Made by a program: the position numbers and the translations under genes. DNA of 64,000 nt, taken from an uncultured Eudoraea sp. GTDB taxonomy: Bacteria; Bacteroidota; Bacteroidia; Flavobacteriales; Flavobacteriaceae. Under the pieces are notes generated by a model. That model saw only the letters and a list, made by a program, of their open reading frames with translations. It did no database searches and had not been told where the DNA came from. Shown here in pieces: positions 25,116 to 38,526 of this stretch (positions are counted from its first letter, which is position 1; the number at the start of each line of letters is the position of its first letter). The stretch spans positions 1-64,000 of the forward strand of contig CAMYIE010000024.1 of assembly GCA_947258405.1 (NCBI GenBank). The letters run 5' to 3'.

Positions 25116-26696
25116 TTATATTAAAGGCAGTTTGATATAAAATGTACTACCCTTGCCTTTCTCACTTTCTGCGTAAACTTCACCCTGGTGGTCCTCGACT
25201 ATTTTCTTTACATAGGAGAGTCCCAGCCCGTGTCCTTTTACATTGTGTATGTCGCCCGTATGTTCTCTATAGAACTTTTCGAACACTTTTTTTAGCACCG
25301 CTTTGCTCATACCAGCACCTTTATCCTGAACTCTTATAACAATATTATTATTGGCAACTTCAGTGAACACGTCTATTTTTGGTTCCTCCGGAGAGTATTT
25401 CACTGCATTGTCTAATATATTGACCATCACATTTCCAAAGTGCACATCATTGGCCAGAATATCGGATCGTTCTGCATTTAAAGCAGTATTTATATAGCCT
25501 CCTCTATCCTGCACAATTAGCTGCACATGAGCAATGGCTTTGTTAATGATGTCGTGTGCATCTATCCTGTCCTTACTAATATCGAGCTGATTTTTTTCCA
25601 ACTTCGAGATTCTAAGCACATTTTCTACCTGCGCGTGCATTCGTTTATTTTCATCCCTGATCATTTCCAGGTAGCGCTGAACTTTGGTTTTATCACCAAT
25701 AATCTGTGGGTTTTTGATCGCTTCAACAGCCAGATTGATCGTCGCAATAGGAGTCTTAAACTCGTGCGTCATATTGTTGATAAAATCTGATTTAATTTCC
25801 GATATCTGTTTCTGGCGAATTAGCTGATATATAGCTCCGGAATAGGCCACAACAATGATCAGTGTAAACAGCAATGACAGAGCCGCCATTCCTGAGATCG
25901 ACTGAACCAGAAATTTCTTTTTCCTCGGAAATGATAAAAGCAATGAAAAATCGCTGTTACCTTCACTGTTCCTAAAGATAGGTGCTTTGTACAGATTGGA
26001 ATTGGCATACTTAAATCGTTTAGATCTTACTTTTGTGGGTAAACCACGACTGTAAATACCGTATTCGTAGTCTATATCGATAGAATGGTTTTGAAATTCC
26101 CTGTTGAGAAGAAGCTCAATCTCCTGTTTGGTCACCCGTTTGTGGATCGGGACGTTCTCTGCATATTCTCGGTAAACATCATCAAAAACGGCCTTGTCTA
26201 TGCTCGATAACCCCCCTACCTTTTCAAGTTTTTGAATAGGATTGAGTTTGTATCGCTTGCCATCCAGACCGAATTCCTCTTTAAAAATGGTTTTCGTTCG
26301 CTTGCTGGTATAATTCTTTATGGTCGTGGTATCGTTACCATTACCATTGTCAAAGAACGTTGATGCTATATTGTAATCCTCCTCCAGAATACCATGAGAA
26401 TAAAACAAGATCTCATTTGAATTCAGATCACGATCAATAAAAAATATATTGCTCAAATTGGAGCTTTCAAACTCACCAACACTATCCTTAAGGCTCAGGA
26501 ACCTGTTAGAATAGTCTCTCATCTCACGGTCCTCAATTTTATCAGTCACTTTGTTCAGCACTTCTGAAACCGAGGTAGTGAATTGTTCTTCCTTATCTTC
26601 TACAGAACTCTTAATCCAGTAGAGCTGTACCGAGATAATCCCAATAAGAGATAGGCTCATTAATATGACCAGAAGAACAAATAATCTCTTATTCAT
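25116..26696 (-). CDS. Sensor histidine kinase (RprX-like)
   Basis: A 526-residue membrane kinase: TM1 at residues 5-28, a periplasmic sensor of about 240 residues, TM2 around 270-292 (MAALSLLFTLIIVVAYSGAI), then HisKA with His311 in MTHEFKTPIATI, and HATPase_c with N-box GNVMVNILDNAVKYS and G-boxes DKGAGMS and GHGLGLSYVK. It should phosphorylate the regulator encoded 5 bp downstream. The pair resembles RprX/RprY of Bacteroides. The gene starts 64 bp after coaE with an AT-rich gap that may hold a promoter. Confidence 0.95.
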   Translation of the reverse strand: MNKRLFVLLVILMSLSLIGIISVQLYWIKSSVEDKEEQFTTSVSEVLNKVTDKIEDREMRDYSNRFLSLKDSVGEFESSNLSNIFFIDRDLNSNEILFYSHGILEEDYNIASTFFDNGNGNDTTTIKNYTSKRTKTIFKEEFGLDGKRYKLNPIQKLEKVGGLSSIDKAVFDDVYREYAENVPIHKRVTKQEIELLLNREFQNHSIDIDYEYGIYSRGLPTKVRSKRFKYANSNLYKAPIFRNSEGNSDFSLLLSFPRKKKFLVQSISGMAALSLLFTLIIVVAYSGAIYQLIRQKQISEIKSDFINNMTHEFKTPIATINLAVEAIKNPQIIGDKTKVQRYLEMIRDENKRMHAQVENVLRISKLEKNQLDISKDRIDAHDIINKAIAHVQLIVQDRGGYINTALNAERSDILANDVHFGNVMVNILDNAVKYSPEEPKIDVFTEVANNNIVIRVQDKGAGMSKAVLKKVFEKFYREHTGDIHNVKGHGLGLSYVKKIVEDHQGEVYAESEKGKGSTFYIKLPLI

Positions 26697-36966: not shown

Positions 36967-38526
36967 ATGTATTTAAATATTAAACAATTTGTTGTATTTG
37001 TAACAATAATATTTTTTGCATCGTGTCGTGAAGGTCAATACACGATTTCGGAGATACACGGGAAACAGTTGCCGATACTACATGCCGATTCTGAAACCAA
37101 CAAGGATTCTTTGCAAGATTTCCTAAGACCTTATATCGCGCATGTAAACAGTGTTCTCGATGAAACTTTATGCTATGCTCCCTTAGACATTGATAAGACC
37201 GATGGTAGATATAATAGCAGTGCCGGCAACCTTTTGGCCGACATCGTAATGGAACAGGCCAATCCTATATTTCTATCGCGCACCAATGAAAGCATCGATT
37301 TTGTGGTACTCAATTACGGGGGTATCCGAAGTGTGATATCCAAAGGAAAGGTTTCATCCCGGACTGCCTATGAAGTTATGCCTTTTGAGAATACAATAGT
37401 TGTTGTTCAGATGAGAGGTAAAACTATTCGCGATCTTGTAGGTCACCTAGTCCGTTCTTCTCGACCTCATCCGATATCGGGTTTACAGATTATTATCGAC
37501 AAAAAGGATCAATTGTCTTCGGTGACTATTCAGGGCGCTCCTTTTGATGAAAATAGGACCTATAATGTGGCCACGTCCGATTATCTCTATAATGGTGGGG
37601 ATGATATGGGGTTTTTTAAAAACGGTTTAGAGCATTTCGAGCTTCAATACCTGGTCCGCAATGCCATGATAGGATTCTCGTTGAATAGTTGTACGGAGTT
37701 TAGTAAAAAGCATATTACTATTTTGCACACCAATGATGTTCACAGCCATATAGAACCTTTCGCAAGCACACATTCTTCGTTTCCTAACATGGGTGGTGTA
37801 ATAGCCCGAGCTGAACTGATCAGCCAAATCAAATCGGAAAATCCAAATACCCTGCTGCTCGATGCGGGTGATATCTTCCAGGGTACACCCTATTTTAATT
37901 TCTATGGCGGGGAGCTCGAATTCAAACTCATGAGCAAACTAGGATATGATGCCGCCACCATTGGAAATCATGATTTTGACAACGGGATCGACGGATTGTT
38001 GGCCCAGTTACCTCATGCCGATTTTAAACTCCTCTCGGCCAACTACGATTTCAGCAATACAGTGCTCAACGGTTATGTTGAACCTTATAGTATTTATATG
38101 ATCGACAATATAAAGATAGGGGTCTTTGGACTGGGAATTCAACTGGCCGGATTGGTTACAAAAGACCTTTACAAGGAAACTAAATATCTGAATCCCAACG
38201 AGATTGCACAAGATATGGGCGAACGATTAAAATCTGAGCAGAATTGCGACCTTGTTATCTGTCTATCTCATTTGGGCTTTGAATACCTCTCCGATCAACA
38301 GCGTGCCAGCGATGTTCAGCTCTGTAGGTCAACAGAGAATATCGACCTTATTATCGGCGGGCACACCCATACTTTTCTCGAAAAACCGGTTGTCAGGAAA
38401 AATAGGAAGGGAGAACGTGTTCTGATCAATCAGGTTGGTTGCTATGGTGTGAATCTCGGCAGGATTGATTTTTATTTTGATTCCCACAAAAACAAAGATT
38501 CCAGTGGGGTCAACATTTTAGTGTAA
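36967..38526 (+). CDS. Lipoprotein fusing 5'-nucleotidase C-domain and metallophosphatase in reversed order
   Basis: A 519-residue protein with lipobox FFASC (Cys20), so periplasmic. Residues about 45-240 are a 5'-nucleotidase C-terminal domain: KTDGRYNSSAGNLLADIV, VLNYGGIRSVISKGKVS, YEVMPFENTIVVVQMRGK and YNVATSDYLYNGGDDMGFF. Residues 248-519 are the calcineurin-like metal domain with Asp257-x-His259 (ILHTNDVHSH), LLDAGDIFQGTPYF, IGNHDFDNGIDG and IIGGHTHTF. Ordinary UshA-type enzymes have the metal domain first. In other flavobacteria, as I recall, these are two neighbouring genes, so this looks like a gene fusion. It should hydrolyse periplasmic nucleotides or related phosphoesters. Confidence 0.9.
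   Translation: MYLNIKQFVVFVTIIFFASCREGQYTISEIHGKQLPILHADSETNKDSLQDFLRPYIAHVNSVLDETLCYAPLDIDKTDGRYNSSAGNLLADIVMEQANPIFLSRTNESIDFVVLNYGGIRSVISKGKVSSRTAYEVMPFENTIVVVQMRGKTIRDLVGHLVRSSRPHPISGLQIIIDKKDQLSSVTIQGAPFDENRTYNVATSDYLYNGGDDMGFFKNGLEHFELQYLVRNAMIGFSLNSCTEFSKKHITILHTNDVHSHIEPFASTHSSFPNMGGVIARAELISQIKSENPNTLLLDAGDIFQGTPYFNFYGGELEFKLMSKLGYDAATIGNHDFDNGIDGLLAQLPHADFKLLSANYDFSNTVLNGYVEPYSIYMIDNIKIGVFGLGIQLAGLVTKDLYKETKYLNPNEIAQDMGERLKSEQNCDLVICLSHLGFEYLSDQQRASDVQLCRSTENIDLIIGGHTHTFLEKPVVRKNRKGERVLINQVGCYGVNLGRIDFYFDSHKNKDSSGVNILV

Follow-up and report, generated by a model that had tools for sequence, protein, structure and literature searches.

A single open reading frame with 5'-nucleotidase domains in reversed order in an uncultured Eudoraea sp., most likely born of a deletion in a widespread gene pair

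We report that the window, i.e. the whole analysed stretch of 64,000 nucleotides from an uncultured Eudoraea sp. (contig CAMYIE010000024.1, assembly GCA_947258405.1), carries one open reading frame with an ATG start and 519 amino acids in which a nucleotide-binding 5_nucleotid_C domain (C) is followed by a dimetal phosphatase domain, Metallophos (M; Table 1). The frame is open for 556 codons from stop to stop. Both Pfam matches score above the curated cut-offs, with 5_nucleotid_C (PF02872) at residues 83-217 (E 3.3e-24, profile positions 21-156 of 158) and Metallophos (PF00149) at residues 251-469 (E 8.5e-17). The order C to M is the reverse of that in UshA (M to C), and the two matches thus bear out an earlier note on this DNA, which had proposed a reversed domain order in one chain. 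The domain limits given there (C about 45-240, M 248-519) fit within a few residues, but the C domain is cut short, as its homology to the separate C protein of a congener (G001, see below) stops at about residue 235. A single 5_nucleotid_C match is present in the whole genome (3,267,520 bases in 69 contigs), and no second copy of the C or M domain was found in that genome. Motif matching agrees with the single lipobox given in the note: the N-terminus carries a single lipobox-like site, FASC with Cys20. A motif scan found no RR pair anywhere in the fused protein, so no twin-arginine (Tat) signal precedes the M domain.

Table 1. Coordinates of the fused gene and its features in the window
Feature	Position	Strand	Basis and remarks
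Fused gene, C (5_nucleotid_C) then M (Metallophos)	36967..38526	+	519 codons plus stop; ORF, Pfam
Putative Sec/SPII lipoprotein signal, lipobox FASC (residues 17-20), predicted lipidated Cys20 at 37024-37026	36967..37026	+	Sequence, motif match
5_nucleotid_C domain, Pfam limits	37213..37617	+	Homology to the separate C protein stops at about 37671
Deletion junction, 128 bp of G001 missing	37672..37676	+	Alignment; blastn break at 37672/37676
GFSLNSC, relic of the M lipobox, now mid-chain	37672..37692	+	G001 has GGLSLKSC; LNSC matched by motif
Metallophos domain, Pfam limits	37717..38373	+	With D257, H259, D302, N334, H335, D338, H435, H466 and H468

In G001, the only other member of the genus examined, the corresponding place holds two adjacent genes, C and then M, and the stop codon of C overlaps the start codon of M. 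Residues 1-240 of the fused protein match one G001 frame at 78% identity, and residues 232-519 match the next frame at 83%. Over positions 26606 to 63910 a single G001 contig (C9) runs collinear with the window (three blastn blocks, 75-79% identity); 60 window frames, some of them antisense, match this contig, and the fused gene alone matches two G001 frames. The alignment of the locus has one gap, where the window is without 128 bp relative to G001. As judged from G001 the missing stretch comprises the 23 codons with which C ends, the stop and start codons that overlap there and approximately 20 codons of a Tat signal. The earlier note had supposed that a fusion would arise by loss of the first stop and of the second signal peptide; relative to G001 the alignment confirms that both are lost, although the account was incomplete, the lost signal being of the Tat type and 23 residues of the C domain having been deleted as well. 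Where the note had remarked on a junction with no long linker, what is absent is really the end of the C domain (half a helix and a strand).

A gap of this kind could stem from an assembly or sequencing artefact, in which case 128 bp were dropped from what is, in the organism, a normal split pair. Such an error would fit with a draft genome, with a missing stretch that carries two conserved functional elements and with the fact that a chance deletion stays in frame one third of the time. However, the junction lies mid-contig, no other gene is joined or split over 37 kb relative to G001, the missing stretch is present nowhere else in the genome (best match 22 bases at 95%), and the breakpoints, judged from G001, are without a long repeat. 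We regard an artefact as improbable.

The two-gene arrangement is widespread. A profile-based frame test of 180 loci returned 175 split loci, two fused in the order C to M (L001 and L002, both of which are the window), one fused in the order M to C (UshA) and two partial loci. Loci are repeated among the 180 (besides the window, a single pair stands as L003, L004 and L033), and one species may be present from two collections; counts of distinct proteins merge identical frames only. No fused C to M locus other than the window was found among the 180 loci tested, 80 of which were the best full-length tblastn matches, a set that favours pairs sharing one frame. The statement in the earlier note that relatives have a C gene with an M gene next to it, in that order, is thereby borne out at 175 of the 180 loci, including that of G001, and the same fused form throughout the phylum, which the note had named as the observation that would speak against its reading, was not seen in the family, order and phylum genomes sampled. 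All 151 distinct pairs with a recognisable signal have C and then M on one strand; this count leaves out six M proteins without an M..RR pattern and G095, which has an M gene without an adjacent C. C and M share one reading frame in 113 of these 151 pairs. In 89 pairs (among L006-L167) the stop codon of C alone parts two open frames (73 TAA, 14 TAG and 2 TGA), and read-through in these pairs would, hypothetically, give a fusion with the Tat signal inside.

The shared frame in 113 of the 151 pairs, together with the stop codon as sole separator in 89, would agree with an ancestral fused C-M form from which the split pairs were derived. This alternative is contradicted by the present data: none of the other loci among the 180 is fused in this order, and the split M genes, including that of the sister species, have their own full Tat signal. 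We consider it extremely improbable.

The family search gave a match at E up to 0.001 in 330 of 397 genomes, and the best match had an E below 1e-40 in at least 269 of the 397 (counted by hand among the matches listed). Among the matches listed, which are part of all matches, such that a fusion with a long insert could escape among the unlisted ones, the window's genome was the only one of the 397 with a single match across both domains. It was likewise the only one with a single two-domain match in the order sample (89 genomes, 53 with a match) and in the phylum sample (118 genomes, 64 with a match), the family, order and phylum samples being overlapping. Outside the family, split pairs were confirmed both within the class and in further classes of the phylum. 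Open frames of 557-680 amino acids in 44 genomes among the listed family matches suggested many independent fusions; this was rejected since a stop codon between C and M was present in all 44 (6 already among the loci, 38 retrieved additionally), and the open-frame length as such is no evidence of fusion. G418, G497 and G577 also looked fused and were split according to the frame test.

Two loci deviate in other ways. At L165 (G477:C1:178700-182300), in a one-contig genome, the M gene lies in two overlapping frames with ORFs of 125 and 201 amino acids in a frameshift-like manner, which may be either a real lesion or a sequencing error. At L152 (G095:C33:110800-114100) a trmD-like gene is directly followed by an M gene that has both a Tat signal and a lipobox, and no C gene was found in the 3.3 kb examined.

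To compare export signals we used one best match per locus with at least 120 bits, leaving out L001, L002 and two E. coli loci. Of 158 distinct separate M proteins, 154 have the Tat motif (RRx followed by a hydrophobic residue) ahead of the M domain (200 shuffles: mean 5.9, maximum 12); the motif also occurs in 3 of 157 separate C proteins (shuffle mean 2.9), while 154 of the 157 C proteins have a lipobox-like motif (shuffles: mean 28.5, maximum 40). An M lipobox was detected in 57 of the 158 distinct M proteins, including the nearest relatives. Hence, with a Tat motif on M and a lipobox on its partner C, the enzyme's halves seem to leave the cytoplasm by different routes, and in the fusion a domain otherwise sent through Tat therefore stands behind a lipoprotein signal of the Sec type. 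The near-universal Tat motif suggests that M may need Tat. The possibility that the fusion is a remedy for a lost Tat system was ruled out, since TatC is encoded in the window's genome (G000) and in all six genomes queried; the change of route was thus not forced by loss of Tat.

Judged from the G001 alignment, the fusion is not a clean one, the deletion having cut into the C domain. The deleted C stretch is nearly invariant over 157 distinct C proteins, with one Arg conserved in 99%, three Asp in 92, 89 and 90% and one Thr in 91%. For the G001 C protein (258 residues) the AlphaFold model (mean pLDDT 89.4) shows in this region a helix (230-240) and a strand (252-254), in blocks with a mean pLDDT of at least 90. 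The structural alignment of the whole model extends as far as residues 549-551 of UshA and CD73, which are their C-terminal ends and with which the tail aligns; the tail also aligns in sequence with the T. thermophilus enzyme. Because the window retains the G001 C protein to about residue 235, the last helix is cut mid-way and the last strand is gone, and nucleotide capture would as a consequence probably be weaker than in the pair; loss of this near-invariant tail speaks against the enzyme being undamaged. The model of the fused protein has a mean pLDDT of 80.1 and a pTM of 0.63; its residues 231-246 fall below pLDDT 50 and show no helix, where the fused and the G001 C models rest on different alignments and their confidences are not strictly comparable. 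Given this pTM and the low pLDDT at the junction, the model does not fix the relative placing of the domains, and it speaks neither for nor against the closing motion that, according to the earlier note, linked domains may restore.

Pairwise alignment with UshA showed that eight of nine metal and dyad positions are identical. The ninth, UshA Q254, aligns to E472, with H468 nearby, and H468 of the GGHTH motif is the likely counterpart of Q254. On the C side R121, F140, N142 and D212 correspond to UshA R410, F429, N431 and D504, and Y206 takes the place of F498; no partner for UshA R375 and R379 was found in the pairwise alignment with the fused protein. The roles of the metal, dyad and C-side positions follow the assignments in UshA. 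Between the window and G001, C and M have dN/dS values of 0.071 and 0.072, respectively, and both domains thus evolved under purifying selection. The corresponding dS values, 2.03 (C) and 1.24 (M), are near saturation, so dating by dN/dS is impossible and a recent lesion would leave no mark. In C the window has 17 private changes against 9 for G001, and in M it has 9 against 14; the excess in the C half gives a slight hint of relaxation. Taken as they stand, the substitution figures speak against a long decay and not against a recent lesion.

Such a lesion would be a recent deletion that abolished function, leaving a gene in the first stages of decay; its C domain would be unstable, and its M domain, deprived of the Tat signal, would fail to mature. 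This would agree with the loss of a structured and nearly invariant C tail, with the Tat motif of almost all separate M proteins, with the larger number of private changes in C and with the fact that the fused form was seen in one genome only. On the other hand, the frame is open across both domains to its usual end, the catalytic positions are retained, M has fewer private changes than its G001 counterpart and dN/dS is approximately 0.07, although the latter is blind to a recent lesion. We judge loss of function to be the less likely alternative.

The most likely explanation, based on these sequence comparisons, is a fusion private to this lineage and born of a deletion in a widespread gene pair. 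The starting state would be a first gene for C, a nucleotide-binding lipoprotein with a Sec signal, and a second for M, a dimetal phosphatase domain that carries a Tat signal, to which a lipobox is added in the nearest relatives. A single deletion of approximately 128 bp would have joined the first gene to the second in frame. The product is predicted to be exported unfolded by Sec and lipidated at Cys20, and the M domain would load its metal outside the cytoplasm and keep its phosphatase function. With the remaining binding motifs, activity on nucleotides may persist, either in a single chain or between anchored chains that lie side by side. That one such deletion in the conserved pair gave a lineage-specific fusion, an exported lipoprotein whose M domain is still a phosphatase, we hold to be probable. 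The stronger reading, i.e. a working reversed single-chain nucleotidase born of one deletion with M moved from the Tat to the Sec route, is possible but doubtful; if true, Tat export would be dispensable for this metalloenzyme, and the domains could work together although both the canonical linker and the end of the C domain are missing. Under the deletion-born fusion we expect a phosphatase that is anchored in the membrane and less selective for nucleotides. According to a review, the metallophosphatase domain of UshA on its own cleaves ATP, ADP and pNPP, and not AMP (PMC8475336).

The fusion also draws attention to the split pair itself and provides a natural experiment with respect to whether the split nucleotidase acts as a partner pair, and why its catalytic half uses Tat while UshA of E. 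coli is exported via Sec. Among the titles and abstracts of open-licence papers, we recognised none on the split pair or on such a fusion. In a 2023 survey, the class Flavobacteriia was scored as being without ushA-like genes under a rule of >70% query coverage (PMC10454023); the two-gene arrangement would probably fail that rule, by which the split pair is easily missed.

Both domains are of known kinds, and the fused, reversed and Tat-less form was seen in one genome. The separate C and M genes are presumably also of known kinds by annotation practice. Compared with the flavobacterial split pair, e.g. that of G001 (L033), the fusion has the same genomic place, domain order and catalytic motifs at 78% and 83% identity, whereas the pair consists of two genes with two signals and the fusion is one chain without the Tat signal and the C-domain tail. 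SoxB thiosulfohydrolase belongs to the same two-domain superfamily, but the matches to it are weaker: the G001 C model aligns with 2wdc (Z 16.9, rmsd 8.8 over 214 residues), and M matches TIGR04486 with 82.6 bits, far under the curated SoxB cut-off of 550 bits. With 5'-nucleotidases of the UshA/CD73 type (PF00149 and PF02872) the fusion shares both domains, the eight identical metal and dyad positions and the fold of M, as well as that of the separate C protein, but it differs from them in its reversed order, in having no linker helix between M and C and in its truncated C domain.
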